In this document: piece after piece, positions 1-14,315 of the stretch
Position numbering within the stretch: position 1 is the stretch's first letter
Layout of the letters: every line of letters starts with the position of its first letter
Assembly (NCBI GenBank): GCA_004357015.1
Contig: SMXE01000180.1
Coordinates: 1-14,528, forward strand
From: Caldithrix sp.
GTDB taxonomy: Bacteria; Zhuqueibacterota; Zhuqueibacteria; Oceanimicrobiales; Oceanimicrobiaceae
Length of the DNA stretch: 14,528 bases
Direction: 5' to 3'
The notes under the pieces: generated by a model
Database searches by the model: none
Told to the model about the DNA's origin: nothing
The model's input: the letters and a program-made list of their open reading frames with translations, nothing else
Translations under genes and position numbers: made by a program

Positions 1-3000
1 CTTTCACGTTCTGATGTGACGTTTGGGAACGACCCTTTTTCCGTTGCTGTTGGTGATCTCGATGGCGATCTGGATGCTGACCTGGTTGTGACGGACAATA
101 AGGATGACAAGATTCTGGTACTGCTTAATGACGGCGCCGGCGCGTTTCAAATAGATTCTACTTATGCAGCCGACATTGCGCCCAGAGGCGTAAGCACGGG
201 CGACTTTGATGGCGATGGTGCACTGGATTTCGGGGTAGCAAACTGGAACAATGCTGCTCAGACGTTGCAAATTTTTGTGAACGCAGCTCCCCCAAACGCT
301 TCGCCGGGAGCGCCGACACTGAACACACCGGCGAACCTGACACATTTAAATCCATCACTTTCCGCCATCGTTCTAAACTGGAACGTGCCGACCGATACGG
401 ATGGCGACTCTTTGCACTTCCTGGTGGAGATTTCCCAGGCTTCAGATTTCAGCGCTACCGTTGTGAGCGCCGACTCCCGCGTCGATGCCACCGGCTTCAG
501 TCCGGCGCCGCCCGTCGCGCAGAGCGTAACCGACGTCTCGTACACCGTCTCGACCTCGTTGGCAGATGGCGAGTATTGGTGGCGGATCACCGCACACGAC
601 GGTACGACGTTTGGTAGCATTTCGCCGGCGAGGCGGTTCACCGTAGACACGGTTTCTCCGGTGATCGATTCGACGACGTTTACAAGCCCGAATCCGAGCT
701 TTCTGCCCAACTGGTACAATCAGAACAACGTGTCGTCGGTAGATTGGACAGTTCACTATGACGAAACGAATGCCGACCGGGCGCTATTCATTCTCGGCAG
801 TCTGGGCAGTCCGCAAACAGTGGAACCCATTCCCGGTGGCGCGGACCAGACAGCACTGGTGCAGATAAGCATCGGTGGCGCATCGGATGGCAACTACCCG
901 CTGTCCGTCTCCGTGTTTGACAGCGCGGGCAATCAGGCCGCCCAAAATACCAGTATTGCGCTTGACGGCACCGCGCCTACGGGAGCGGTGGCGACTTCTC
1001 CGGCCGAGAGCCAGCAAGAGAGCTTTACCGTCAGTTGGAGCAGCGGATCGGATGGCTCCGGCTCCGGGATTTCCGGCTTGTATGACGTTCAGGTGCAGGT
1101 CAACGGCGGCGCGTGGACGCCCTGGAAGACGAACTTCCCGGGCACCTCTGATACCTACCCCGGGCAGGACGACAGCACCTATGCTTTCGAGGCGGCGGCG
1201 CACGACAAGGTCGGGAATGTGGAAGCGTTCCAGGATTTTGTCGAAACCACAACTGTGGTGGATACGACTACGGATTCGACGCCACCCGGACAGCCAGTGA
1301 ATCTCACAGCCAACGGCAGCAACCCGAGTCCGTGGCAGAATGTCACCGATTTCACTATTTCCTGGCAGAACCCGGCAGACGCAAGTGGCATCGCGCGGGC
1401 GCTGTACAACCGTGACGCCGCCCCGATATCGAATTTCGATACCACCGGCTCAGTAACGGGAGCAACCTCTTTTGTGAGTTCGGCGACGCAGGAAGACGGC
1501 CAGGACCTGTATCTCTGGTTTGTTGACGGCGCCGGCAACGTCAATTTTCAAAACAATGACGCCGTTACTTTACGCTACGATGCCACGGCGCCAACCGGGA
1601 CACTGGCGTCCTCGCCGAGTGTCAGCGTCACAGAAACTTTCACAGTTAGCTGGGCTGGCTCGGGATCGGATGGCAGCGGCTCAGGTCTTTCGGGCGTTTA
1701 CGACGTCAGGGTACGGGAAGACGGTGGTGTGTGGCAGAATTGGCTCACGAATTTTTCGGGGACAACCGATGACTACCTTGGCGTGCACGGCAGAACTTAC
1801 GAGTTTGAGGTCGCTGCGCACGACGGCGCCGGTAACGTTGAGGCTTTCACGCTAGTCGCTGAAACGACCACCGAAGTGGATACCACCGCCAACGACGTGC
1901 AAGCGCCAGGTCCGCCGACGACGCTACTGGCAGGCGGCTCGAGTCCGAGTCCCTGGCAGAACGATCCCCAATTCGAAGTCGCGTGGCAGGAGCCCAGCGA
2001 CCCAAGTGGCATCGCGGCGGCCTACTACAAGCGCGGCAGCATGCCCACAGCCAATTTTGACACCACAGGCTCTGTTGTCAGTGGCACGACTCTGACAATC
2101 GACGCCACAGTGGAAGAAGGACAGGATTTATTCATCTGGTTTGCTGACCAGAGGGGCAACATTGATTTCCGCAACTACGGCACGGTTGAGCTGCGGTATG
2201 ATGGCACCCTGCCGGCTATCTTCGAAATGGATTTTCTCAATGCAGATTTTCTGCCGAACTGGTACCGGCAGAGCACCACCGGCACGGCGCAACTCGCATT
2301 TGAGTACACCGAGTTTCACACCAACAGCCTGCTTATGACATCTGCCGACTTGGGCACGAGTATCGATGTTCCGAACCCTGAGAGCGGCGAAGATGTGCAA
2401 GTGATTTTCAACCTGGCTATTTCAGGCAAGCCTGATGGTTTTTACCAAATCAACTTCACCCTGGCAGACAGCGCCGGCAACGTAGCGACAGACTCTACCA
2501 TCCTGGCGCTTGATTCCGCCGCGCCCACGGGCACGCAAGCCTCTTCGCCCGATACGAGCAGGGACTTAACCTTCACCGTCACCTGGAGCGGGGGCGCGGA
2601 CGGTAGCGGCTCAGGTCTCTCCGACGTTTACGACGTCAGGGTGCAGCAAGATGGCGGCGCCTGGCAGGACTGGCTGACCAACTTCAGCGGTACTTCCAGC
2701 GACTACACCGGCATCAATGGCTCAACCTACGGTTTCGAAGCCGCGGCGCACGACAATACCGGCAACGTCGAGGCTTTTCTGAACATAGCGGAAACAGAAA
2801 CGGTTATCGATATGGGCTTTACCGATGTTCTCGCGCCTACCATTCAGCACACGCCAATTCTGGTGGTGGATGAGGGGCAGGATGTGACCATCCAGGCTGA
2901 AGTGGCGGACAACGTTCTGGTCACGGAAGTGCTCCTGTTCTACAAACAGAGCGGCGTCGTCGCTTTCCAATCCATGCCGATGGTGAGTACCGCCGGCAGC

Positions 3001-4494
3001 ACATATTCGGCAACATTGACCGCATCGCAAATCTCTGTGCTCGGCGTCAATTACTTCATCCGGGCGTCAGACGGCGCAAATGAGGCGTTCGATCCGGCAG
3101 ACGATTATGATGTTTTGCCCTACAATATTTCGGTGAGAATTACCGGCACTGATAACAGCGGCCTTGTGAAAGACACGCCCCCGCCGGGCGGGAGCAGCGT
3201 CAATTTCTACAGAATGATTTCAGTGCCGCTGATTCTCGCCGATAGCGATCCAATCGCCGTACTGGCAGATGATCTGGGTCCTTACGATTCCAAGAAGTGG
3301 CGTTTGTTTGAGTACATCACCAGCTCTGACAGCTACCGTGAGTATCCAAACGTGTCCCCCTTTTCGCCAAACCAGGCATTTTGGCTGCTCGTGCGCGAGT
3401 CGAACCGCGACTTAGATTCAGGTCCGGGTACTTCAGTCACCACCAGCAAAGGCTTTGAGATCACACTGAATCAGGGCTGGACCGATATCGGCATGCCGTT
3501 CAGTTTTCCGGTCGATGCAGATAACATCGAAATTGTGGCAGGCGATCCCACTGGCGTCATCGGCCCCTACACCTATCGCGACGGCTGGCTCCTGCCCAAT
3601 CAAGTGCCAACGCTGGAGCCGTGGGAAGGATACACGTTCTTCAGTCCCGCAGCCGGCGTGAAAATCGCCATTCACCCTGTTGCGCAAAGCACGGCTGCGA
3701 GCCGCACACGCGCTAACAAAATCATGCTTGATTCCGGCTCCGGACCTGAGTGGTCCGTGCGAATCAAGGCGTCATCGGGCGAGATCACGGATGCCAACAA
3801 TTTTCTGGGTGTTGCTGCAAATGCCGCGGCGGCGTGGGACCGGCTCGACTACCTGGAGCCGCCTTTCATCAGCGATTATGTTTCTGTAAGATTCCCGCAC
3901 CCGGACTGGGAAATTGTCAGCGGCAACTTCAAGAGTGATGTACGTCCGCCGTTTGAGGAGGGACAAGTTTGGAGCTTTGAAGTTGCCACCAGCTTAAAAA
4001 ACAGCAGGATTCGACTGACGTTCGAGAATCTGGAATCGCTGCCGCGCGATTTCACCGCTGTCTTGCTGGACAAGAAGACCTACCAGATCATCGACCTGCA
4101 CGAGCGCCGTGAATACGGGTTCTTGCCGGACCAAGAGGATCTGACCCGCAGGTTCGACCTGGTGATCGGGACCGAGTCTTATGTTGAAAATTCAGAGGCG
4201 CTGGATGTGGTTCCGGAGATATTCTCGTTGAGCCAGAACTTTCCGAATCCGTTCAACGCAGGCACTACGATGCTCTACAATATCGCGGAAGCCAGCGAAG
4301 TGACAGTCAAGGTGCTCAACATTCTGGGCCAGGAAGTGCGCCAACTTGTTCGCGACAGAAAAGAGCCGGGCGTCTACCGCGTACACTGGGACGGGAAAGC
4401 GGACAACGGTCTGGAGTTGAGCTCCGGGGTTTACTTCATCAGAATGCAAGCTGGAAAATTTCAACAAATTCGTAAAGTGCTGTTTGTGCGTTGA
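1..4494 (+). CDS. Giant modular secreted surface protein with FG-GAP repeats and C-terminal T9SS-like sorting domain (5' end missing)
   Basis: The frame is open from base 1, so the true start lies upstream; the GTG at 16 is only the first start-like codon and about 1,495 codons are visible. Domains in order: two FG-GAP/VCBS-type repeats with acidic loops DLDGDLDAD (from about 58) and DFDGDGALD (from about 202), typical Ca-binding beta-propeller blades; an FN3-like sandwich (about 295-650); a seven-module mosaic (655-2814, separate entry); an Ig-like domain (about 2827-3140, EGQDVTIQAEV); a beta-rich region with paired W..LFEY and GWTDIGMPF motifs (about 3199-3690); another beta-rich region; and a FlgD-like Ig domain (4222-4491) with NFPNPFN, LNILGQEV and SSGVYFIRM. 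In Bacteroidota and relatives this ending is the type IX secretion type-A sorting signal. Likely exported and cell-surface bound or released; adhesin or matrix role inferred. No catalytic domain recognised. A gene follows 40 bases downstream, probably in the same operon. Confidence 0.93.
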   Translation, partial: LSRSDVTFGNDPFSVAVGDLDGDLDADLVVTDNKDDKILVLLNDGAGAFQIDSTYAADIAPRGVSTGDFDGDGALDFGVANWNNAAQTLQIFVNAAPPNASPGAPTLNTPANLTHLNPSLSAIVLNWNVPTDTDGDSLHFLVEISQASDFSATVVSADSRVDATGFSPAPPVAQSVTDVSYTVSTSLADGEYWWRITAHDGTTFGSISPARRFTVDTVSPVIDSTTFTSPNPSFLPNWYNQNNVSSVDWTVHYDETNADRALFILGSLGSPQTVEPIPGGADQTALVQISIGGASDGNYPLSVSVFDSAGNQAAQNTSIALDGTAPTGAVATSPAESQQESFTVSWSSGSDGSGSGISGLYDVQVQVNGGAWTPWKTNFPGTSDTYPGQDDSTYAFEAAAHDKVGNVEAFQDFVETTTVVDTTTDSTPPGQPVNLTANGSNPSPWQNVTDFTISWQNPADASGIARALYNRDAAPISNFDTTGSVTGATSFVSSATQEDGQDLYLWFVDGAGNVNFQNNDAVTLRYDATAPTGTLASSPSVSVTETFTVSWAGSGSDGSGSGLSGVYDVRVREDGGVWQNWLTNFSGTTDDYLGVHGRTYEFEVAAHDGAGNVEAFTLVAETTTEVDTTANDVQAPGPPTTLLAGGSSPSPWQNDPQFEVAWQEPSDPSGIAAAYYKRGSMPTANFDTTGSVVSGTTLTIDATVEEGQDLFIWFADQRGNIDFRNYGTVELRYDGTLPAIFEMDFLNADFLPNWYRQSTTGTAQLAFEYTEFHTNSLLMTSADLGTSIDVPNPESGEDVQVIFNLAISGKPDGFYQINFTLADSAGNVATDSTILALDSAAPTGTQASSPDTSRDLTFTVTWSGGADGSGSGLSDVYDVRVQQDGGAWQDWLTNFSGTSSDYTGINGSTYGFEAAAHDNTGNVEAFLNIAETETVIDMGFTDVLAPTIQHTPILVVDEGQDVTIQAEVADNVLVTEVLLFYKQSGVVAFQSMPMVSTAGSTYSATLTASQISVLGVNYFIRASDGANEAFDPADDYDVLPYNISVRITGTDNSGLVKDTPPPGGSSVNFYRMISVPLILADSDPIAVLADDLGPYDSKKWRLFEYITSSDSYREYPNVSPFSPNQAFWLLVRESNRDLDSGPGTSVTTSKGFEITLNQGWTDIGMPFSFPVDADNIEIVAGDPTGVIGPYTYRDGWLLPNQVPTLEPWEGYTFFSPAAGVKIAIHPVAQSTAASRTRANKIMLDSGSGPEWSVRIKASSGEITDANNFLGVAANAAAAWDRLDYLEPPFISDYVSVRFPHPDWEIVSGNFKSDVRPPFEEGQVWSFEVATSLKNSRIRLTFENLESLPRDFTAVLLDKKTYQIIDLHERREYGFLPDQEDLTRRFDLVIGTESYVENSEALDVVPEIFSLSQNFPNPFNAGTTMLYNIAEASEVTVKVLNILGQEVRQLVRDRKEPGVYRVHWDGKADNGLELSSGVYFIRMQAGKFQQIRKVLFVR
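655..2814 (+). repeat. Coding repeat array: three beta-sandwich module types in order C-A-B-A-B-C-A
   Basis: Seven domain-sized modules of about 98-107 codons lie in phase inside the giant secreted protein. C modules are at 655-969 and 2209-2520 (shared FLPNWY near the start, DSAGN near the end). A modules are at 970-1269, 1585-1887 and 2521-2814 (shared APTG, DGSGSG, YDV.V, GGAW..W, FE.AAHD, GNVEAF). B modules are at 1276-1584 and 1888-2208 (shared SPWQN, ASGI or PSGI, DTTGSV, GQDL..WF.D, LRYD). A2 and A3 also match at DNA level, for example an identical 17-base stretch encoding YDVRV (in A2 from about 1697, in A3 from about 2627). This points to relatively recent duplication or gene conversion between A2 and A3, with A1 more diverged. 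Confidence 0.85.
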
Positions 4495-4534: not shown

Positions 4535-5275
4535 ATGAATAGAATGAAGAGACTTTTCGGCGCCACGCTTGTAGCGAGTCTGTTTCTGGCCGGGTCCGCC
4601 GTTGCGCAGGATCAGGCGCTGCAGAAACTGATTCACGGCAAGAAGTTTTTCTGGGAGGCAAAATTCGATCAGGCCCTGACCTCCTTGAAACAGGTCACGG
4701 AGATAAAGGATGCCAAGCGCGAGTATCTGTTTGAGGCGTATCTCTACACAGGGTTTGTCCTCCTGCGCCAGAATGCGCCCGGTTCAGAAGTGGAGTCGGT
4801 CTTCTCTCAAGCGATTCGCCTCGAGCCACGCAGAAAGCTCGACGAGATGGTTATCCCACCGGACTTAATCGAGCCATTCTATGACGCCAGAAACAAACTC
4901 GTAGGCTGCCTGTACATCGTAACGGAGCCGGAAGAGGTAGACATCATCGGCGTCAAAGGGGATAGCGTTCTTTTCGATGAAACCACACCCCTGCAGGTTT
5001 GCGACCTCGTGGATAACGATTACCAACTCCTGCTTTCCGAAGAAGGCTACGACCAGCAGTTTATTCCCCTCAAACTCAATCCGGGCAAGACCGACACGCT
5101 GCATATTGCGTTGGATCGAATTTACGCACAGGGTGGAGGGAAAACAGGTTTGAAATGGGCGCTTCGGGGTGGAATCCTCGTGGCAGCAGGCGCGGTGCTC
5201 TACAAGACGGTTATCGCCGGTGGGGATGATGCGGTGGAAGATTTGCCCGGTCCGCCCGCCAGACCAGACCGTTAA
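4535..5275 (+). CDS. Exported TPR-like / PEGA-domain protein with C-terminal membrane helix
   Basis: 246 aa. The start is supported by GAGGA at 4524-4528, six bases before the ATG. Residues 1-24 form a signal peptide (basic start, hydrophobic core, AVA before Q25). Residues about 26-105 look like TPR-type helical repeats (KKFFWEAKFDQAL, FSQAIRLEP), followed by the linker pattern MVIPPDLIEPFYDAR, a form I associate with envelope TPR/PEGA proteins. Residues about 121-193 form a PEGA-like beta domain (TTPLQVCDLVDNDYQLLL, EEGY). Residues about 207-227 are a hydrophobic helix, and the tail is acidic and proline-rich. It lies 40 bases after the giant secreted protein and probably shares its transcript, so an accessory or assembly role for that protein is a reasonable inference. 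No enzymatic motif is visible; the specific function is unknown. Confidence 0.85.
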   Translation: MNRMKRLFGATLVASLFLAGSAVAQDQALQKLIHGKKFFWEAKFDQALTSLKQVTEIKDAKREYLFEAYLYTGFVLLRQNAPGSEVESVFSQAIRLEPRRKLDEMVIPPDLIEPFYDARNKLVGCLYIVTEPEEVDIIGVKGDSVLFDETTPLQVCDLVDNDYQLLLSEEGYDQQFIPLKLNPGKTDTLHIALDRIYAQGGGKTGLKWALRGGILVAAGAVLYKTVIAGGDDAVEDLPGPPARPDR

Positions 5276-5557: not shown

Positions 5558-7735
5558 TTAATTGTCCTGCTTTATCCGGGTGAAAGTAAAAGAAACGTAC
5601 TTCGTCTGACCCTTCTCGACCTTTATGATCACATCCTTCGGAATAGCATTAAATCCGGGTCGTTTGAGCTCAATCGTATGTGAGCCGACCGTGAGTTTCA
5701 ACTCGAGGGGCGTGGTGTTATGCCCCTTTTCCCATCGCCTGCCATCGACGTAAACATACCCGAAGCCAAATTGAGCAGCGTTCTTCAAAGAGACTGCGAT
5801 GATGCCCTTGTCTGCTTTCGTGAAGTCATGTTTGACTCGTAAAATCTGGCCGATCTTGAGGTCCACCTTTTGCTCCCAGGTGGCATTCAACTGGGAACTG
5901 ACGAGTTTGATGGTGTGCTGGCCGTGTTTCAGTGAAACCTTGGTTGGCGTCCGGCCTTTGTGCAAAACACCGTCAATGTAGATTTCGTCGGCACGCGGGA
6001 TGGCGTCCAGAATGATGGTGCCGAATACATCAGTGCGCGCTTTGAGGTCAAATGCCTGTTGCGGCATGTTCGCGGCCACCAGAAGCTTTTGAGTCGTCGA
6101 GGTGTAGCCTTCCTTGGAGACACGCACGTAGTACGATTTGTTGACCAGCAGACCGTTGACTTCCAGCTTGCCGATCTGGTCAGTCTTACCCACGAAACTG
6201 TTGTCCAGAAAGACGTTTGCTTGCAGCGGCCGGCCGCCCGACTTGACGTAGAAACTGACGGTGGTCGAGCGCACGGCAGTGTTGGCGGCGGGCATCGGTC
6301 TTGCAGGTTCCGGCTTTTTAGCGACTGGTTTTGGGTTGGTAGAAACCGGCGCTTCTTTCTTCGTTATCTTAGCGGGCGGCGGACTGCTCTTTTTCGGTTC
6401 GGGCTTTGCCGCTGCTGGTGAATCGATGTCTGCGTCGTTCGTCGGTTGGGTATTTTCTGCGGCGAGCAGATTCTCAGTTTCAAACGCGTTGGTTTCGGAT
6501 GCTGGCTTATTGCCGTTGTTCATATTGCCAGGAATGTCGCCGTCTTCGCCGAAGTCCTCGCCGAGGTAGGCGGGATCCAGGTCGGTGAGCTCACCGTACT
6601 TTGACGTGTCACTGCCCCAGAACGGAAGCGAAACATAATCGGTGGCCAGAAAGATCAAAAGGAGGAGCGCAACCGCTGCCAGCGCTGAAAACACGACTTT
6701 CTTGCTCATGAATGACCAGCCCGGGCGTTTTATCTCAAATCCAGAATCGACCGTATCTGCCCCGGCAGGGGTGTCGTCAAAATACTTCTCGTTCTGGGCC
6801 GGACCAAATGTCAGATCGATGTTTTCGTTGTGAACCTCTTCTACTTCAGATTCATCCAGCGCGCTCTTTTTTAGCGACTCAAGCGCCTGCACATACTCTT
6901 TCAGGTTTTGATAACGTGCTTCCACATTTCTGGCGGTGCTGGTTTTGACAATACTTTCCAGTTCAATGGGTAGATTGCTTTTCGACAAATCAAGCTCGAT
7001 GATTCTGCCGTCAAGATGTTGCGTCCTTATGGCGGAAACGGTTTCGCTTTGAACCGGGTGCTTGCCCGTCAATAATTCGTGCAAAATCAGACCGAGCGAA
7101 TAGATGTCTCCGCGGCCATCAATTTTTTCGATGTCAATAAAACATTCTGGCGCCATATACCTGGCAAACTGACGGGACTCTTCGGTGTTCTCTTGCACCA
7201 GATTTGGGATATGCCAGCTAAACCCGAAATCCTCGATTTTGACTGCACCATCCGGCTTGACATAAATGCAGTCAGGATTCAAAAAGCCGTGCACCAGGCC
7301 GTGCAGGTGCGCATAGCGTAGTGCCTTGCCGATGACTGAGAAGATTTCCACCAGGTCTGAGATGGATAGAGAGAACTCCTCGAGGATGAGGGCTCTGAGC
7401 GTTTCCTGAGCAAGCGTTTCGGTAGCGATGTAGTAGTGCCCTTCCCGGGCGTCGCTGCCGAGGTCGAACACACGGCAAATGTTTGGATGGTTCAGATGCT
7501 TGATAATGCGGGCGCCGTTCAGGAAGTTCATCACCTGATGCTCGTGGTTCTTGAATTTCGGATCGAGCACCTTGAGGGAGACGTGTTTTTCCGTACGACG
7601 ATCTATGGCGTCATAAAGGGTAAAGCAAAGCCGCTGTATTACCTTTTGCTTGATCTCAAATTTTTGAAACTCTGGGAAATCCATTTCAGACCTGCTTTGT
7701 TGCTCGTGTAGATCGACGGTGACGGGATTTTTCAT
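5558..7735 (-). CDS. Membrane-anchored Ser/Thr kinase-like protein (probable pseudokinase) with three PEGA-like domains
   Basis: 725 aa. Kinase fold at residues about 22-288: K55 (VSLK), DFG at 169-171, MAPE at 194-197, and a well-kept helical lobe (GDIYSLGLILHELLTG). Key catalytic features are missing. The glycine loop has become KVIQRLCFTLYDA with no glycine. The alphaC Glu (FLREAR in typical relatives) is Gly74 in FLNGAR. The catalytic loop HRDLKPEN reads HGFLNPDC (149-156), losing Asp, Lys and Asn. One hydrophobic helix at about 346-365 follows a basic RPGWSFMSKK, then an acidic and a Pro/Lys/Ala-rich linker (to about 485), then three beta domains: PEGA/carboxypeptidase-regulatory-like (492-565), PEGA-like (570-637) and PEGA-like (642-718). 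Inferred topology: cytoplasmic kinase fold, external PEGA domains. No clear SD precedes the ATG at 7735; the alternative ATG at 7684 has a weak AGG and still includes the fold. It may act as a scaffold or ATP-regulated switch rather than a phosphotransferase. Confidence 0.92.
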   Translation of the reverse strand: MKNPVTVDLHEQQSRSEMDFPEFQKFEIKQKVIQRLCFTLYDAIDRRTEKHVSLKVLDPKFKNHEHQVMNFLNGARIIKHLNHPNICRVFDLGSDAREGHYYIATETLAQETLRALILEEFSLSISDLVEIFSVIGKALRYAHLHGLVHGFLNPDCIYVKPDGAVKIEDFGFSWHIPNLVQENTEESRQFARYMAPECFIDIEKIDGRGDIYSLGLILHELLTGKHPVQSETVSAIRTQHLDGRIIELDLSKSNLPIELESIVKTSTARNVEARYQNLKEYVQALESLKKSALDESEVEEVHNENIDLTFGPAQNEKYFDDTPAGADTVDSGFEIKRPGWSFMSKKVVFSALAAVALLLLIFLATDYVSLPFWGSDTSKYGELTDLDPAYLGEDFGEDGDIPGNMNNGNKPASETNAFETENLLAAENTQPTNDADIDSPAAAKPEPKKSSPPPAKITKKEAPVSTNPKPVAKKPEPARPMPAANTAVRSTTVSFYVKSGGRPLQANVFLDNSFVGKTDQIGKLEVNGLLVNKSYYVRVSKEGYTSTTQKLLVAANMPQQAFDLKARTDVFGTIILDAIPRADEIYIDGVLHKGRTPTKVSLKHGQHTIKLVSSQLNATWEQKVDLKIGQILRVKHDFTKADKGIIAVSLKNAAQFGFGYVYVDGRRWEKGHNTTPLELKLTVGSHTIELKRPGFNAIPKDVIIKVEKGQTKYVSFTFTRIKQDN

Positions 7736-8009: not shown

Positions 8010-8078
8010 GTTTTATCTCTCAACGGCTATTTTATTTTCATGTTATCTTATCTACGAAACGTTCATTTCAAACTGTTT

Positions 8079-8085
8079 AAGGAGG
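8079..8085 (+). promoter_or_regulatory. Strong ribosome binding site deciding the M16 peptidase start
   Basis: AAGGAGG lies five bases before the ATG at 8091. The in-frame ATG at 8040 lacks such a site and would bury the signal peptide behind 17 extra residues, so 8091 is preferred. Confidence 0.9.
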
Positions 8086-8090
8086 AAAAA

Positions 8091-10853
8091 ATGATCGGTC
8101 TGAAAGTAGTTTCTGGTTTAGTGCTTCTGTTTGTTGTTTTCGGAGCAGGTGTCTTGAACGCCAAATCCAAAGCCGACACCAACAAGTCGGGTGAAATCGA
8201 TATTCCGTACCAAAAGTTCATTCTGGACAATGGGCTGACGCTCATCGTTCACGAAGACCACAAAGCACCCATCGTAGCGGTCAATGTCTGGTACCATGTT
8301 GGCTCAAAGAACGAAAAGCCCGGCAAGACGGGTTTTGCGCATCTGTTTGAACACCTGATGTTCAACGGCAGTGAAAATTTCAACGATGACTATTTTCAGG
8401 CCATGGAGCGGGTTGGCGCCACCGATCTAAACGGTACTACCAACCGCGACCGCACCAACTATTTCCAGAACGTACCGACTTCTGCCCTGGACGTGGTGCT
8501 CTGGATGGAATCAGATCGGATGGGACATCTGCTGGGCGCCATCGATCAGGCCAGACTCGACGAGCAGCGCGGCGTGGTGCAGAACGAAAAACGCCAGGGT
8601 GAAAACCAGCCGTACGGCCGCGTCTTCGGGTTGATTACGGAGAATTCTTTTCCCAATGGTCATCCCTACTCATGGACAACCATCGGTTCCATGGAAGATC
8701 TGGATGCGGCTTCCCTCGAGGATGTGCACGAATGGTTCAAAAGCTACTACGGCGCTGCAAACGCCATTCTGGTCATCGCCGGTGATGTCGAAGCGGAAGA
8801 CATTAAGAAAAGGGTTGAAAAATATTTCGGGGACATTCCTTCGGGCCCGCCAGTGACAAGGTACGATTCCTGGACCGCCGGCAGAAGTGAAACGCGCCTG
8901 GTCGTAACCCAGGACCGCGTGCCGCAGGCGCGGCTGTATCGCTCCTGGAATGTGCCGCAGTGGGGCTCGGCCGATCATGATTATCTGGAAATGGTCGCTG
9001 CCGTGCTCGCATCGGGGAAAACATCCCGGCTTTACAAACGGCTTGTTTACGATGATCAGATTGCGACGGATGTTTCGGCGTTCATCTGGTCTGGCGAAAT
9101 CGCCTCAAATTTTGTCATCCAGGCCACGGCGCGGCCGGGTGAGGATTTGGCTGAGATCGAGAAAGCAGTGGAGGAGGAACTGCAACGTTTTCTGAAGGGC
9201 GGACCGACGGAGAAAGAGCTCAAGCGGGTACAAACGCAATTTCAGGCGAACTTTGTACGCGGCATAGAACGCATCGGCGGCTTTGGCGGCAAGTCGGATA
9301 TCCTGGCCATGAACGAAGTCTATGGCGGCGGCCCGGATTTCTACAAGACAACGCTCACACGTACACAGAAAGCCACTGCGACGAACTTGCTCACAAGCGC
9401 TCAGGCCTGGCTTGCAAAAGGCGACCTGATTCTGGAGGTCCACCCCTTCCCGGAATTCAACACTGTGGAAACCGACGTGGACCGCTCGAAACTGCCGGAG
9501 CCCGCGAAACCGCCCAAAGCCAAATTTCCCGAGCTGCAGCGGGCAACGCTCTCCAACGGCCTGAAGATCGTACTTGCGGAGCGGCACACGGTGCCCCTGG
9601 TAAATTTTAACCTGCAGCTCGATGCCGGTTATGCATCCGACCAATTTGGCACGCCCGGCACAGCAAGCCTGGCGATGAACATGCTGGATGAAGGCACAAA
9701 GACGAGAAACGCGCTGCAGATCAGCGATGAGTTGCAGATGCTGGGGGCACGGCTGAGTTCCGGTTCCAATCTTGATATGTCGTTCATAAGTTTATCCGCG
9801 CTGAAGACAAACCTTAAGAAATCGCTCGAGCTTTTCGCAGACGTTATTTTAAATCCCGCGTTCCCGGAGGCAGATTTTGAGCGGCTGCAGAAACAGCAGC
9901 TCGCCCGGATTCTGAGAGAGAAAGCCACGCCTGTGCAAATGGCGCTCAGGGTGTTTCCCAAACTGATCTATGGCGAGAATCATGCTTACAGTTTGCCCTT
10001 CACCGGTTCCGGCTTCGAGAGCACGGTGACTCAGTTGACCCGCGCTGACCTCCGCAACTTTCACCAGACCTGGTTTAAGCCGAACAATGCAACGCTGGTG
10101 ATCGTCGGGGCCACAACTCTCGCCGAGATCACCCCGAAACTCGAAAAGCTGTTCGGCGATTGGCAACCCGGCGATGTGCCTGAAAAGAACATCAGCACTG
10201 TTGGGCAGGTTTTGGAACCAGTGGTTTACCTGCTCGATCGGCCTGGTTCGCAGCAGTCGATCATCTTTACCGGCCACGTTGCATTACCCAAAGCAAATCC
10301 CGATGAGGTGGCCATCGAAACCTTTATCGACATTTTGGGCGGGACGTTCACATCGCGCATCAACATGAATCTTCGGGAAGACAAGCACTGGTCTTACGGT
10401 GCATTCTGCTTCATGGTGGGGGCGCGTGGCCAGCGGCCGCTTATCGTTTACGCCCCGGTACAAACCGACAAGACCAAAGAGTCAATGCAGGAGGTATTAC
10501 ACGAGTTGGAAGGCATCGTCGGAGAACATCCGCCCACAGAGGAGGAACTGGTCAAGAACAAGAAAAACCGCACGTTGAGTCTGCCGGGTTCCTGGGAAAC
10601 CATCGCGGCCGTCGGCAACTCCGTGAACGAGATCGTGCGGTACGATCTGGGGGACGATTACTTCGAGACGCTGGCGGACAAAATTCAAAGTCTCTCGTTG
10701 GCGGAAGTTGCAAGTTCAGGCAAGAAGTTGGTGCACCCGAAAAACCTCATTTGGGTTGTGGTGGGCGATCGCGAAAAGATCGAAGCGGGTGTGCGTGAAC
10801 TTGGCTTTGGGGAGATTCGGTTTATCGATTCTGACGGCAACCAGATCGAGTAA
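8091..10853 (+). CDS. M16 family zinc metallopeptidase, two-domain, exported
   Basis: 920 aa. Residues 1-24 form a signal peptide (hydrophobic VVSGLVLLFVVFGAGVLNA), so the enzyme is placed in the periplasm or envelope. The N-terminal half is the active M16 domain: HLFEH at 84-88 is the HxxEH motif (H84 and H88 bind zinc, E87 is catalytic). E166 in QNEKRQ is the probable third ligand, 78 residues after H88, and E158 matches the second conserved Glu. The C-terminal half (from about residue 475) is a second M16 fold without HxxEH (SLAMNMLDEGT at that place) but with the conserved LRE...WSYG motif, as in inactive partner halves. The two halves together form the clam-shell peptidase in one chain, as in pitrilysin-like enzymes and PqqL. 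Expected substrates are oligopeptides; the natural one is unknown. It stands alone, convergent with the DUF819 gene and divergent from the kinase-like gene. Confidence 0.95.
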   Translation: MIGLKVVSGLVLLFVVFGAGVLNAKSKADTNKSGEIDIPYQKFILDNGLTLIVHEDHKAPIVAVNVWYHVGSKNEKPGKTGFAHLFEHLMFNGSENFNDDYFQAMERVGATDLNGTTNRDRTNYFQNVPTSALDVVLWMESDRMGHLLGAIDQARLDEQRGVVQNEKRQGENQPYGRVFGLITENSFPNGHPYSWTTIGSMEDLDAASLEDVHEWFKSYYGAANAILVIAGDVEAEDIKKRVEKYFGDIPSGPPVTRYDSWTAGRSETRLVVTQDRVPQARLYRSWNVPQWGSADHDYLEMVAAVLASGKTSRLYKRLVYDDQIATDVSAFIWSGEIASNFVIQATARPGEDLAEIEKAVEEELQRFLKGGPTEKELKRVQTQFQANFVRGIERIGGFGGKSDILAMNEVYGGGPDFYKTTLTRTQKATATNLLTSAQAWLAKGDLILEVHPFPEFNTVETDVDRSKLPEPAKPPKAKFPELQRATLSNGLKIVLAERHTVPLVNFNLQLDAGYASDQFGTPGTASLAMNMLDEGTKTRNALQISDELQMLGARLSSGSNLDMSFISLSALKTNLKKSLELFADVILNPAFPEADFERLQKQQLARILREKATPVQMALRVFPKLIYGENHAYSLPFTGSGFESTVTQLTRADLRNFHQTWFKPNNATLVIVGATTLAEITPKLEKLFGDWQPGDVPEKNISTVGQVLEPVVYLLDRPGSQQSIIFTGHVALPKANPDEVAIETFIDILGGTFTSRINMNLREDKHWSYGAFCFMVGARGQRPLIVYAPVQTDKTKESMQEVLHELEGIVGEHPPTEEELVKNKKNRTLSLPGSWETIAAVGNSVNEIVRYDLGDDYFETLADKIQSLSLAEVASSGKKLVHPKNLIWVVVGDREKIEAGVRELGFGEIRFIDSDGNQIE

Positions 10854-10867
10854 GCACAAATAAATTG

Positions 10868-10890
10868 CCACAGAGTCGCGGAGGACACGG
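10868..10890. repeat. CCACAGAG..CGGAGGACACGG-type intergenic repeat
   Basis: This GAG-rich tract just after the M16 stop resembles the degenerate repeat at 5377-5412 and a common intergenic motif remembered from other bacterial genomes. Its last bases (10886-10890) form part of the outer stem of the adjoining inverted repeat. Confidence 0.45.
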
Positions 10891-10999
10891 TGCGATTTGG
10901 AAATAGCATCCCGAGTAGTCCCGCAGGACGTATCGAGGCAGCGTCCTGAGCATGACGAGGGGAGCGAAGTTTTGAAATTTGAGGCTTCGCCGCACCGTG
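10886..10999. repeat. Nested inverted-repeat element, possible structured RNA or miniature repeat element
   Basis: The outer arms CACGGTGCG (10886-10894) and CGCACCGTG (10991-10999) are exact reverse complements. Inside are two further hairpins: CAGGACG (10924-10930) with CGTCCTG (10942-10948), and GCGAAG (10964-10969) with CTTCGC (10985-10990). The last abuts the outer arm directly, giving a multibranch fold of about 114 bases. It fills the gap between the convergent M16 and DUF819 genes. It could be a transcription-end structure, a REP/MITE-like repeat or a small structured RNA. No T-run follows on either strand. Confidence 0.55.
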
Positions 11000-11017
11000 G
11001 TCTTCTTAAAAAAAAGT

Positions 11018-12229
11018 CTATTCAGCCACCAGCTTGAGCAGCAATGCACACAACAATGCTGCATAATTTCCCAGCAAGTAGCCCATCATGCCCATGAGCA
11101 GGCCCACCGGCGCCATGGATTCATAGTAGGCTGCCGCCACGATGGGTGCGGTTGCAGCGCCGCCAATGTTGGCCTGACTGCCGATGGCTACTAAAAACAT
11201 GGGCGCCTTCACAATTCTTGCCCCGAGAAACAAGCATGCCACGTGGATGAGTATCCAAACCACGCCCACCAGAACCAGGACCGGCGCCTCCAGGATGCCC
11301 CGCAGATCCGCTTTGGCCCCGATGGAGGTGAGAAAAAGGAACAGACCGGCGTACCCCAATTTTGATGCGCCGCCCGACTCGATTCCGCGCATACGTGTAA
11401 ACGAGAGCAGAATTCCTACCGTTGACACCAGGATCACCATCCAGGTGAATCCGCTGAAGATGGCAGCCACTCGCGGCATATTGGCGGACAAGATCGGGTC
11501 GGTCAACTCGTAGATGCCGTACCCGGCGACCCGGCACGCATAGGCGCCAATGAACCCGATGGCGATGACGACTGTAGTGTCGGTCAGCGTGATGGGCCTG
11601 GCCTGGCTTTCTTCGAGACTCTTGAGCCGGCGGTTGATGTCTGCGAGAACGTCGGAATCTGCGTGGTTCCAGCGGTCGATAACTCTCTGGTAGTTGGCCA
11701 GGAAGAGTAGAACCCCCATCCAGGTGTAGCCTACCGCCGTGTCCACAATGATGATTGGACCGATGATACTGTCCGGCGCGCCGACCGACTCCTTTATGGC
11801 TGCGAAGTTTGCGCCGCCACCGATCCAGCTTCCGGACAATGCCGCAAGCCCCTTCCACGTATCCGGCGGTAGCCATTTTGAGAAAATGACATAGGCGATT
11901 GGACCGCCGATGACGACTCCAAAGGTGCCCACCAGCATCATGATCAGGGCTTTGGGCCCGATTTTCATGATAGTCGGGATGTCGGCGGTGACCATCAGAA
12001 TGAACAAACTGAAAGGCAGTAAATAATCCCGCATCCAGTCGTAAAGTGGCGAAGAGGTTGGCAGAATGCCGAATGTGCTGGCAAATGTCGGGATATAGTA
12101 AATCAGGACCACGGAAGGCACTATGCGGTAGAACTTTGTCATCCAGCTTTGCGACGTTGACCAGAATACGAAGGCACACACGCCGGCACAAAATGCGAAA
12201 ACAGCCATGGGTTCCTGCAAAGGTGTCAT
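11018..12229 (-). CDS. DUF819 family integral membrane protein
   Basis: 403 aa, very hydrophobic, with about ten or more membrane helices, matching the usual length of DUF819 proteins. The start is set by GGAGG (plus-strand 12236-12240) six bases before the ATG. Two related glycine-rich motifs occur, GSWIGGGANFAAIKE (133-147) and GSQANIGGAATAPIVA (350-365), one in each half, which suggests an internally duplicated transporter fold. A cytoplasm-like loop around residues 180-215 is charged (RWNHADSD..., NRRLKSLEE). No experimentally proven substrate is known to me; transport of a small organic molecule or ion is inferred only from the fold. The gene stands alone with its own promoter, convergent with the M16 gene. 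Confidence 0.88.
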   Translation of the reverse strand: MTPLQEPMAVFAFCAGVCAFVFWSTSQSWMTKFYRIVPSVVLIYYIPTFASTFGILPTSSPLYDWMRDYLLPFSLFILMVTADIPTIMKIGPKALIMMLVGTFGVVIGGPIAYVIFSKWLPPDTWKGLAALSGSWIGGGANFAAIKESVGAPDSIIGPIIIVDTAVGYTWMGVLLFLANYQRVIDRWNHADSDVLADINRRLKSLEESQARPITLTDTTVVIAIGFIGAYACRVAGYGIYELTDPILSANMPRVAAIFSGFTWMVILVSTVGILLSFTRMRGIESGGASKLGYAGLFLFLTSIGAKADLRGILEAPVLVLVGVVWILIHVACLFLGARIVKAPMFLVAIGSQANIGGAATAPIVAAAYYESMAPVGLLMGMMGYLLGNYAALLCALLLKLVAE

Positions 12230-12255
12230 GTGAGGCCTCCAGGTAAATGGGTGTG

Positions 12256-12269
12256 ACTCAGAATTGAGT
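12256..12269. repeat. Short inverted repeat at the predicted DUF819 transcription start
   Basis: ACTCA-GAAT-TGAGT is placed four bases downstream of the minus-strand -10 box, over the expected start site. It may be a repressor operator or a small 5' hairpin. It is short, so chance cannot be excluded. Confidence 0.3.
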
Positions 12270-12272
12270 GGC

Positions 12273-12301
12273 AGTATATGAAAAACGCTTCACTTTGTCA
12301 A
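12273..12301 (-). promoter_or_regulatory. Sigma70-type promoter of the DUF819 gene
   Basis: On the minus strand, a perfect -35 TTGACA (12296-12301) and TATACT as -10 (12273-12278) are separated by exactly 17 bases. Transcription should start near 12266, giving a leader of about 37 bases that contains the GGAGG ribosome site. Confidence 0.85.
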
Positions 12302-12322
12302 GGCGGACGTGTTGGTGTGAGT

Positions 12323-12352
12323 TTGTTCTTGCTTTTTAGTGATGAGTATTCT
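12323..12352 (+). promoter_or_regulatory. Weak candidate promoter of the TerB-like gene
   Basis: TTGTTC (12323-12328) and TATTCT (12347-12352) are 18 bases apart. A transcript would begin only about eight bases before the ATG at 12367, consistent with the absence of a ribosome binding site there (near-leaderless). Confidence 0.35.
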
Positions 12353-12366
12353 AAGTTTCAGATCGT

Positions 12367-12825
12367 ATGCTGAACATTATAAAGAAATTCTTTTCCTCTC
12401 CTGAAGAAGGAGCTTCCGGAAACAAAAGGGAAATCGATGTCCGTGATCTTCGCGTTGCCACATGTGCGCTCTTTCTGGAAATGGCAAGCATCGATGGCGA
12501 GTTCAGCGAAGTAGAGCGCAAAACAATATTTTCCATTCTGAACAAAGAATTTGGCCTGCCGCAAGAAGTCGCAGAAGAACTGGCGGCCGCAGCCGAAAAC
12601 GAACTTGGGAAAAGCATCGACCTTTGGAAATTTACCAATCTGATAAACGAACACTACGCTCAGGCAGACAAGTTGAAAATTATCGAGATGATCTGGAAGG
12701 TCATTTACTCGGACGGCAAGTTGAGCATGCATGAGGACTATCTGATTCACAAGCTGGCGAGTCTGCTCAATATTGAGCACCGGCAACTGATTACAATGAA
12801 AGTAAAGGTTTTGCACGAGAAGTAG
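12367..12825 (+). CDS. TerB-like (tellurite resistance protein B family) protein
   Basis: 152 aa, soluble and all-helical. The TerB fold spans about residues 25-145, with the paired acidic motifs ASIDGEFSEVE in the first half and SDGKLSMHED in the second, the usual metal-binding positions of the family. The first residues (MLNIIKKFF) are a typical basic amphipathic start for stand-alone TerB proteins. Stand-alone TerB proteins are widespread and mostly uncharacterised, and links to tellurite exist only for some operons. No ter-operon partners (TerC, TerD) are nearby, so a tellurite role is not supported here. It has no Shine-Dalgarno sequence and is divergent from the DUF819 gene. Confidence 0.85.
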   Translation: MLNIIKKFFSSPEEGASGNKREIDVRDLRVATCALFLEMASIDGEFSEVERKTIFSILNKEFGLPQEVAEELAAAAENELGKSIDLWKFTNLINEHYAQADKLKIIEMIWKVIYSDGKLSMHEDYLIHKLASLLNIEHRQLITMKVKVLHEK

Positions 12826-12828
12826 CGT

Positions 12829-12858
12829 TTGCCGGATGCTTGTTGACATCCCCGGCAA
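12829..12858 (+). terminator. Possible transcription-end hairpin after the TerB-like gene
   Basis: TTGCCGGATG (12829-12838) pairs with CATCCCCGGCAA (12847-12858) with a two-base bulge, starting four bases after the stop codon. No T-run follows, so an intrinsic terminator is uncertain. Confidence 0.35.
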
Positions 12859-12901
12859 TCTGCCTGCCAGACAGAATAGCACGCCTGCAGTCTCCCACCT
12901 G

Positions 12902-12929
12902 TTGACTTTCCCGAACAAATTGCTAATTT
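12902..12929 (+). promoter_or_regulatory. Candidate promoter of the UMF1-like transporter gene
   Basis: TTGACT (12902-12907) and TAATTT (12924-12929) are 16 bases apart in the 206-base gap after the TerB-like gene. Transcription would start near 12936, leaving a leader of about 95 bases. Apart from this and the hairpin at 12829-12858 I see nothing else in the gap. Confidence 0.45.
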
Positions 12930-13031
12930 CTCCCTAAACCCGCCCGCCAATGACGGCGAAGACAGATGACGAATGACATCACTTGTTCCGCCCAAAGCCA
13001 CTGAAAATGTAACGGACAGATTGGGGTAGCC

Positions 13032-14315
13032 ATGGCACAATCCTACGACTACGACAGGCGCGCCGTCTTCGCCTGGGCAATGTTTGATTTTGGTAATTCC
13101 GCTTTTTCAGGCCTTGTGCTCACTTTTATTTTTTCAACCTACTTCACGCAGGCCATTGCGCCGGACAAGATTATCGGTACTGCTTTGTGGTCGAGGGCGT
13201 TGGCGGTTTCCGGATTGACTGTTGCATTCCTGTCTCCCTTTGCAGGCGCGCTGGCGGATCGTGGCGGTTTCCGAAAACGGTTCCTGTTTGTCCTGACTGT
13301 CATCGCTGTGGCCGCAACAGCCAGTCTTTACACTGTGCTGCCCGGGCAGGTGATGAAAGGGCTGGTTCTGTTTGTGGTAGCGAATATCGGCATGGAAATG
13401 GGCATGGTGTTCTACAACTCCTTCCTGCCGGATATTGCACCACCGGACAAGATCGGCAGGATTTCCGGGTATGGCTGGTCTTTCGGCTACGTCGGGGGGC
13501 TGCTGGCCATGTCCATTGCCCTGTTGGGATTTGTGCAGCCGGAGTCGCCCTGGTTTGGGCTTTCAAAAGAGACCGGCGAGAACATTCGCGCCACCAATCT
13601 GTTGGTGGCCTGCTGGGTCGGCCTATTCAGCATGCCACTTTTTTTGTGGGTGAAAGAGAAAAGAGCTAATGAAAGTGTGAAAATCAAAGGGCTGTTCCCC
13701 GCCACTGCCAGGCAGTTGATTCTGACCTTTCGCGAGGTAAGAAACTATCGTCAGATCGTTCGGCTGCTGGTCGCCCGGATTTTCTACAATGATGCCATCC
13801 TCACTATATTTTCGTTCGGCGGAATCTATGCTGCCGGCGTGTTTGGCTTTTCCATGAATGAAATCATGCTCTTCGGCATCGTCCTGAATATCACTGCCGG
13901 CATCGGCGCGTTTGCCTTCGGCTTTCTGGACGATGCCATCGGTGGCAAGAATACAATCCAAATTACCAATATTGCTTTTGTTGCGGCGGTGCTCGTAGCC
14001 GTCTTCGCACCCACTAAATTTTGGTTTTGGGTGGCGGGCATAATGATCGGTTTGTTTGCGGGACCCAATCAGGCTGCAAGCCGCTCTCTGATGGGACGTT
14101 TTGTGCCGCCGGATAAGGAAAGTGAGTTTTTTGGATTTTACGCATTTTCCGGGAAAGCCACGGCGTTCATGGGACCGCTATTATTGGGGCTCCTTACCCA
14201 AGTTTTTGACTCCCAGAGGGTGGGCATCAGCATTGTCATCGTGTTGTTTGCCATCGGAGCATTTATTTTGCGCAAGTTGGACGAAGAAGAGGGGAAGAGG
14301 CTTTCCGGCCGATAA
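13032..14315 (+). CDS. UMF1 / Atg22-like major facilitator superfamily transporter
   Basis: 427 aa, about 12 membrane helices. The start FAWAMFDFGNSAFSG (residues 13-27) is the family's WxMxDxxNSAF signature. The MFS loop 2-3 motif appears as GALADRGGFRKR (about 73-84). The late signature NQAASRSLMGRFVPP and EFFGFY (about 345-370) is also typical of UMF1 proteins. Bacterial members are mostly annotated as general permeases; yeast Atg22 exports amino acids from the vacuole. The substrate here is unknown. GGGGT five to nine bases before the ATG is a weak ribosome site. It is probably transcribed alone, convergent with the response-regulator fragment. Confidence 0.92.
   Translation: MAQSYDYDRRAVFAWAMFDFGNSAFSGLVLTFIFSTYFTQAIAPDKIIGTALWSRALAVSGLTVAFLSPFAGALADRGGFRKRFLFVLTVIAVAATASLYTVLPGQVMKGLVLFVVANIGMEMGMVFYNSFLPDIAPPDKIGRISGYGWSFGYVGGLLAMSIALLGFVQPESPWFGLSKETGENIRATNLLVACWVGLFSMPLFLWVKEKRANESVKIKGLFPATARQLILTFREVRNYRQIVRLLVARIFYNDAILTIFSFGGIYAAGVFGFSMNEIMLFGIVLNITAGIGAFAFGFLDDAIGGKNTIQITNIAFVAAVLVAVFAPTKFWFWVAGIMIGLFAGPNQAASRSLMGRFVPPDKESEFFGFYAFSGKATAFMGPLLLGLLTQVFDSQRVGISIVIVLFAIGAFILRKLDEEEGKRLSGR

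Follow-up and report, generated by a model that had tools for sequence, protein, structure and literature searches.

What is a kinase fold kept for once its catalytic residues are gone? The question is raised by a gene in the window, by which we mean the whole stretch of 14,528 nucleotides analyzed here (contig SMXE01000180.1 of the Caldithrix sp. assembly GCA_004357015.1). The gene is a reverse-strand frame at 5558-7735, open over 725 codons in our reading of the open reading frames (ORFs), which were chosen by length and overlap without a gene finder. Its 725 amino acid product scores as Pkinase in Pfam, with 107.5 bits against a cut-off of 31.7. We predict a pseudokinase joined to a transmembrane helix and PEGA domains. 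It may act in the inner membrane as a scaffold without catalysis, its PEGA domains serving a surface-protein system encoded by two neighboring genes, named C1 and C5 here (probability about 0.5, from sequence analysis).

The window protein is very probably catalytically dead. An initial annotation, made from the sequence alone, had pointed to HGFLNPDC in place of HRDLKPEN, a Gly at the alphaC Glu position, a glycine loop without glycine, and the presence of the Lys, DFG, and APE; all of these are confirmed in the ORF and in the alignment. The interval it gave, 7230..7735, belongs to the same gene but stops inside the first DFG codon and omits APE. A protein search returned 11 full-length homologues (P0001 to P0011). 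P0001, a 99% identical cluster of 23 sequences, is that of the window protein itself; the other 10 are 39-49% identical to the window protein. Every one of the 11 has HG[FM]L[NS]P and lacks the alphaC Glu.

The same positions are degenerate across the family. The HRD Asp is retained in 0 of 34 members (15 long proteins, 7 short paralogues, and 12 proteins from outer families of the class). Among comparators, 25 of 27 kinases encoded in the window's genome and its relatives retain it, as do 108 of 109 reference kinases, which are the other matches of the homologue search. The family rows omit P0001, P0003, and P0006 (duplicates of rows present), the two pieces of L205, L203, in which no kinase-domain match was obtained, and L204. 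The HRD Arg is replaced by Gly in 33 members and by Ser in one, and the Lys of HRDLK is retained in none. The alphaC Glu is missing from all 33 members with a residue at that column. Glycine occurs at the glycine-loop column in 0 of 32 members and in 100 of 109 reference kinases; one column was used, as two other candidate columns are not glycine in the reference kinases. Orthologues with a normal HRD, which the initial annotation had said would speak for a sequencing error, number 0 of 34. Given the contrast in HRD Asp between family and comparators, sequencing error or decay is excluded, as it is by the homologue motifs and by the selection estimates below. A recent loss in one species is ruled out by the motif counts and by the single clade.

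Other residues are lost to different degrees. The beta3 Lys is retained in 15/15 long members, 5/6 short members with a residue there, and 4/12 outer-class members, and the DFG Asp in 14/15, 6/7, and 2/12, respectively. The catalytic-loop Asn is found in 6/15 long, 0/7 short, and 1/12 outer-class members (7/34). The suggestion of a selective loss of catalysis has to be qualified: the loss is old and common to seven families, and the outer members have mostly lost the beta3 Lys and DFG Asp too.

Among 82 genomes of the phylum, a profile of the PEGA end picks out 20 with the long protein at E 1e-20 (21 matches, with the G007:C250 piece, L204, treated as a general PEGA fragment). Seven belong to the window's family, which numbers 8 genomes, and 13 to other families of its class. 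Twelve of these 13, from six families, have a kinase-type domain, and one (G031) has only the transmembrane helix, linker, and last PEGA domain (L203:6935-7642). The dead state is demonstrated in seven families (f1, f2, f5, f7, f10, f12, and f13) of the class's 13, and the remnant is in f9. The loss is not claimed to predate the whole class, since this profile gave no match in f3, f4, f6, f8, or f11 at that threshold. In one genome (G062, L201:1765-3684), the gene lies in two ORFs, reflecting a frame break or an assembly fault. Other searches added little: a second profile search of the protein database was dominated by PASTA kinases, one with the PEGA end of L192 returned three proteins, including the query's own cluster, and a scan of named genomes gave, beyond the first two loci, ordinary kinases among the matches listed.

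When a tree was built after masking 11 trait columns (82 rows, 81 of them different, including every fifth reference kinase, 22 of 109, and leaving out the partial L127), the 33 pseudokinases fell on one side of a branch with support of 100/100, and no HRD kinase lies inside this clade; the method itself does not infer a root. The verdict of the initial annotation, a probable pseudokinase, is borne out by this clade and by the missing HRD Asp. Within it, long plus short proteins are supported at 100/100, long at 96/95, and short at 100/99; the outer-class group is weakly supported (83/46) and includes the long branches L200 and L202. The simplest reading is apparently that catalysis was lost once, before the seven families diverged; horizontal transfer is the alternative. 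The two HRD Asp exceptions among the 27 comparator kinases, L110 (G037, HARLNPNN) and L122 (G034, HGKLKPTN), have degenerate catalytic loops and lie outside the clade; here the HRD Asp was lost separately.

The ratio of nonsynonymous to synonymous substitution (dN/dS, Nei-Gojobori) in the kinase domain is 0.121 (G001/G007), 0.107 (G018/G013), and 0.114 (G067/G068). For the same genus pairs in order, the PEGA part has 0.138, 0.126, and 0.087, and the transmembrane helix plus linker 0.302, 0.537, and 0.314. The dead kinase domain of the long protein is thus maintained, with values near those of the PEGA part, in keeping with the earlier argument from the intact frame that the gene is not decaying. 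Between G001 and G007, the short paralogue has 0.283, C5 0.122, and the neighboring DUF819 gene 0.072.

The fold also appears to be retained. The whole-protein model is weak overall (predicted local distance difference test score, pLDDT, 63.6), so the kinase domain was modeled again alone, and the predicted structure is kinase-like, as the initial annotation had expected; 11 of the 36 rows in the alignment for this model are other Hanks-type kinases, which may bias it toward a normal kinase shape. The proposed membrane anchor is found by a hydropathy scan as one transmembrane segment, matching a helix at 348-364 in the whole-protein model, and a hydrophobic segment separates the kinase and PEGA parts in 18 of 18 kinase-bearing long proteins scanned. 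Of the three PEGA domains first proposed, the model shows three beta-rich domains (residues 490-563, 571-637, and 643-720), but only two PEGA stretches pass the Pfam threshold, and no PASTA is listed. The first beta domain has a sub-threshold CarboxypepD_reg match at 503-556. The last is the best conserved: of the 13 columns that are invariant in the alignment across the class, it contains 7. Counts from a promoter and terminator scan were close to those of shuffled sequence.

The strongest clues to function lie outside what the initial annotation considered: the breadth of conservation of surface-protein neighbors and a second, kinase-only dead paralogue. C1, a giant protein, adjoins the pseudokinase gene in 16 of the 20 genomes, and C5 is in the same locus in 14; the contig ends within C1 in four genomes (G035, G059, G062, and G066). 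FG-GAP, Ig-like repeats, and a type IX secretion system (T9SS) sorting domain occur in all three C1 proteins scanned (window, L135, and L192), and TIGR04183 also matched in the window and L135 proteins, the only two run on that library. C1 is probably exported through the T9SS. The window C5 has no Pfam match of its own, and its L192 homologue has PEGA above the cut-off. C5 is present in 18 of 20 genomes with the long protein versus 7 of 62 without it (Fisher p 1.3e-10, which is too optimistic because the genomes are related and kinship is uncorrected).

Gene order varies between families. At 10 loci of f5, f7, f10, f12, and f13, the pseudokinase gene is followed by C1 on one strand, and C5 is next in six of these, where the sequence extends to it, and likewise at the G031 remnant. 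In f2, the pseudokinase gene directly adjoins C5 with no C1, the two being separated by 16 bases if the stop codon is counted. Orthology of C1 within the window's family is firm: the L135 protein matches the window C1 at 1849 bits, and its next matches are a contig-end piece (448 bits) and then one at 261 bits. The contig-end piece, C156:8-1291 of the window's own genome, matches the front of the giant protein, the remainder of which lies at the start of the window. Clustering of C1 was loose and also drew in two proteins at short-paralogue loci (L128 and L132), which are left out of the counts.

All genomes of the window's family except G004 (7 of 8) encode the short, kinase-only protein, which has about 290 amino acids where complete. 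Its catalytic loop reads HG[LV]LNP, or HSVLNP in G005, and the copy in the window's genome ends at a contig edge. In G004, a relative with HGSLHP is split and partly masked. At 4 of 7 loci, the short gene has an extracytoplasmic function (ECF) sigma gene immediately downstream (by Pfam in the three scanned and by clustering in the fourth), and a gene for a HEAT-repeat protein comes next; one of the three scanned has a zf-HC2 anti-sigma motif.

Table 1. Coordinates of the pseudokinase gene, its parts, C1, C5, and the short paralogues (positions in the window, or within the named locus).
Feature	Position	Strand	Basis
Pseudokinase-transmembrane-PEGA gene, 725 aa	5558..7735 (stop included)	-	ORF and Pfam
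Pseudokinase domain, residues 18-290	6866..7684	-	
Glycine-loop region, residues 29-41, no glycine	7613..7651	-	
Beta3 (VAIK-type) Lys K55, retained	7571..7573	-	
AlphaC Glu position, Gly74	7514..7516	-	
HGFLNPDC replacing HRDLKPEN, residues 149-156	7268..7291	-	
DFG, residues 169-171, retained	7223..7231	-	
APE, residues 195-197	7145..7153	-	
One transmembrane helix, residues 347-365; four Lys+Arg before, one after	6641..6697	-	hydropathy scan and model
Pro/Ala-rich linker, low model confidence	6272..6640	-	model and hydropathy scan
First beta domain, PEGA/CarboxypepD_reg-like, residues 490-563	6047..6268	-	weak Pfam match and model strands
PEGA domain 2	5816..6025	-	Pfam
PEGA domain 3	5576..5809	-	model coordinates
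Giant protein C1: FG-GAP, Ig-like, fn3, T9SS type A sorting domains; 5' end beyond contig	1..4494	+	
C5, TPR and PEGA-like protein, convergent with pseudokinase gene	4535..5275	+	homologue alignment
Short paralogue (own genome, C175)	L127:5493-6041		
Short paralogue	L128:6457-7338		
Short paralogue (HSVLNP)	L129:6839-7723		
Short paralogue	L130:3092-3952		
Short paralogue	L131:5584-6408		
Short paralogue	L132:6344-7237		
Short paralogue	L133:6862-7740		

Positions 8040-14315 of the window encode an M16 peptidase, a DUF819 protein, a TerB-type protein (12367-12825), and an ATG22-like major facilitator superfamily (MFS) transporter, and across the window's family each of these is again found beside the pseudokinase gene, in some or most genomes. 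In G003, a gene for an apparently active kinase (L134:4348-6186) is located about 1.2 kb away from that of the pseudokinase; its product resembles the window protein in its order of kinase, transmembrane, and PEGA-like parts, the latter two by eye, and differs in having an intact HRDVKPANV and in lying outside the pseudokinase clade. The window's genome is a 2.2 Mb draft, 70% complete, with five other kinase matches. Three have HRD (HRDIKPANV, HRDIKPANI, and HRDVKPSNI), and the others are a partial gene with HGLLNPGSI and a kinase with HQDISPGNI (L004, C240:5730-6503), which has PEGA in the same frame and is followed on its contig by a frame with an FHA domain.

In the role proposed here, the Hanks-type kinase domain would lie catalytically inactive in the cytoplasm, followed by the single transmembrane helix, the Pro-rich linker, and three PEGA-type domains in the periplasm. 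The kinase fold would offer a docking surface to a cytoplasmic partner without phosphorylation. The PEGA end would be the working end, acting in the periplasm with C5, which appears to have the same kind of domain, and with C1, the presumed exported protein, so that the C1 surface protein would be deployed, anchored, or monitored. The initial annotation had already suggested a signalling scaffold, and this may be so on the sequence evidence. The scaffold reading rests on the dead clade, purifying selection, the kinase-like model, and the transmembrane segment between kinase and PEGA parts. A role with C1 and C5 is favored because C1 is beside the gene in 16/20 genomes and C5 is in the locus in 14 and in the genome in 18/20, and because the G031 remnant without a kinase domain still adjoins both.

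Several observations weigh against the proposed role. In 5 of 18 kinase-bearing proteins, the Lys/Arg bias that would orient the membrane segment is weak, reversed, or missing altogether. Within the window's family, the pseudokinase gene is oriented against C1 and C5, and two genomes (G003 and G004) carry the C1-C5 pair elsewhere in the genome. A third, G005 (98% complete), has C1, C5, and the short paralogue with no long pseudokinase at the thresholds used, so C1 and C5 do not depend on the long protein everywhere. In the outer families, the identity of C1 comes from single-linkage clustering and position, and the scan for domains covered three C1 proteins. The T9SS link does not discriminate, since almost all the genomes of the phylum (79 of 82) have the translocon marker SprA, including all 20 with the long protein (in G000 it scores below the family's cut-off). 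Retention of the Lys and DFG Asp in the window's family leaves nucleotide binding possible. We also considered that the long protein is a general T9SS component; this is unsupported, given that it is in 20/82 genomes and SprA in 79/82.

The neighborhood may instead be a conserved stretch of chromosome without functional meaning, with the pseudokinase and its short paralogue acting in general envelope or stress signalling. This is unlikely. Genes resembling ComEC, CoaE, and RNase HII (from ORF reading, without models) do share blocks in other families, and the ECF sigma gene beside the short paralogue in 4/7 loci would fit, but the association with C1 or C5 persists amid ComEC-like neighbors in f5, f7, f10, and f12, the gene directly adjoins C5 in f2, and the flanks in f1 are M16, DUF819, TerB, and MFS genes. 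In another reading, the kinase domain would be a tolerated relic and the transmembrane-PEGA part would work alone, as the G031 remnant and the invariant columns of the last PEGA domain might suggest. Purifying selection on the kinase domain is about equal to that on the PEGA part and its fold is predicted to be retained, which make a relic highly improbable.

Two further explanations concern the kinase domain itself. As in MviN, an active kinase of the cell could phosphorylate the juxtamembrane or activation segment and recruit an FHA protein, so that the dead domain would be a regulated landing pad in envelope synthesis. FHA domains in all 8 genomes of the window's family make this a serious rival, if an unlikely one; ordinary HRD kinases are encoded in the same genome, and MviN is a described precedent (PMC12599244). 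Against it, ORF reading of the loci, without model scans, shows no recurrent FHA or active-kinase neighbor, with the exceptions of the active kinase-PEGA gene in G003 and, in G007, a frame with FHA on the pseudokinase contig at a distance of about 10 kb. The domain may also bind a nucleotide through K55 (15/15 long members) and the DFG Asp (14/15), either as an ATP-sensing switch or for another transfer reaction like that of SelO. This seems quite unlikely, as the alphaC Glu (0/33), the loop Asn (7/34), and the glycine of the loop (0/32, versus 100/109 in reference kinases) are missing or rare and most outer-class members lose the Lys (4/12 keep it) and the DFG Asp (2/12 keep it). SelO AMP transferases use a beta3 Lys-alphaC Glu pair and a metal-binding loop Asn. 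The pseudokinase family differs on both counts, lacking the Glu in 33/33 and not conserving the Asn, and SelO-like chemistry is unlikely. E. coli SelO has Hgvmntdn at the catalytic loop, which resembles the window protein in its HG and N (PMC12599244).

The window protein can be compared with several known proteins. PknA and PknB of M. tuberculosis, StkP, and Stk1 are Hanks-type kinases, from which the window protein differs in lacking the HRD Asp, alphaC Glu, and glycine loop; in place of the PASTA repeats of PknB-type kinases it has PEGA. Bacterial pseudokinases have lost at least one of the beta3 Lys, HRD Asp, and DFG Asp; the window protein qualifies through the lost HRD Asp (0/34) and a kinase fold that is kept in the predicted model. 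A 2025 review, from which we draw the following descriptions, names seven families of bacterial pseudokinases (PMC12599244). The initial annotation's comparison with MviN (ActPs3) goes no further than an analogy: both have a dead kinase domain in an envelope protein, and a scaffold role is described for MviN, but the motifs differ (VALT, Lsidhpsr, and no DFG in MviN; SLK, HGFLNPDC, and DFG here) (PMC12599244). By description, MviN is a transmembrane protein needed for peptidoglycan synthesis, whereas the window pseudokinase is fused to PEGA, with no fused flippase by Pfam. Among the others described there, GLW pseudokinases have GLW for HRD and Leu or Trp for the beta3 Lys, where the window protein has HGF and Lys. 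CP1 pseudokinases have no transmembrane segment and are linked to COG3899, whereas the window protein has one such segment, PEGA, and no ATPase domain. ActPs2 changes the beta3 Lys to Arg and the HRD Asp to Asn, where the window protein keeps K55 and has Phe for Asp; ActPs1 substitutes all three catalytic residues, of which the window protein keeps K55 and the DFG Asp. DYD has a substituted beta3 Lys, and DLHK keeps the HRD Asp with degraded ATP and DFG motifs, the reverse of the pattern here.

EssB/YukC resembles the predicted window protein: it has a membrane-anchored dead kinase domain on the cytoplasmic side and is tied to protein export (PMC12599244, PMC9600267, PMC3694306, PMC13037476). 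The pseudokinase-transmembrane arrangement is common to both, according to the hydropathy scan and the kinase-domain model. The C-terminal segment of EssB is helical, in contrast to the beta PEGA domains here, and EssB/YukC belongs to the type VIIb secretion system, whereas a T9SS-sorted protein adjoins this pseudokinase gene. No type VII genes were noticed among the neighbors by ORF reading, a comparison made without a model-based search. MviN and EssB are not among the 50 matches listed in two comparisons, which does not imply exclusion.

On the features that can be compared, this pseudokinase family fits none of the seven in the review, their motifs as described there setting it apart, and the word PEGA is absent from the review's main text (PMC12599244). 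Among the papers listed in searches of the mostly open literature on bacterial pseudokinases, kinase-PEGA proteins, the T9SS, and ECF sigma factors, titles and abstract beginnings contain no account of this family. The kind of protein is already known; the family itself seems new. New here are the dead state across seven families, the second kinase-only dead paralogue, and the C1/C5 neighborhood.

Bacterial pseudokinases are described as largely unexplored experimentally; the same review ascribes scaffold roles to MviN and EssB/YukC and suggests that further membrane pseudokinases may serve secretion (PMC12599244). The single clade, strong purifying selection, and conserved set of gene partners give concrete partners to test. 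From the window's family, which retains the Lys and DFG Asp, through the outer families, in which they are mostly gone, to G031, in which the kinase domain itself is gone and a transmembrane-PEGA part is left, the proteins form a graded series in which the purpose of keeping a dead kinase fold can be tested. The PEGA domains and T9SS neighbors suggest another link between a dead kinase and protein export, after EssB/YukC. A bolder and doubtful extension is that a dead kinase was recruited independently of EssB/YukC as an inner-membrane factor for exporting or anchoring a giant T9SS protein, with the soluble dead paralogue beside an ECF sigma/anti-sigma pair reporting on the same process. If true, the window's bacterial family would have a circuit for envelope signalling that is built from the two pseudokinases and works without catalysis.

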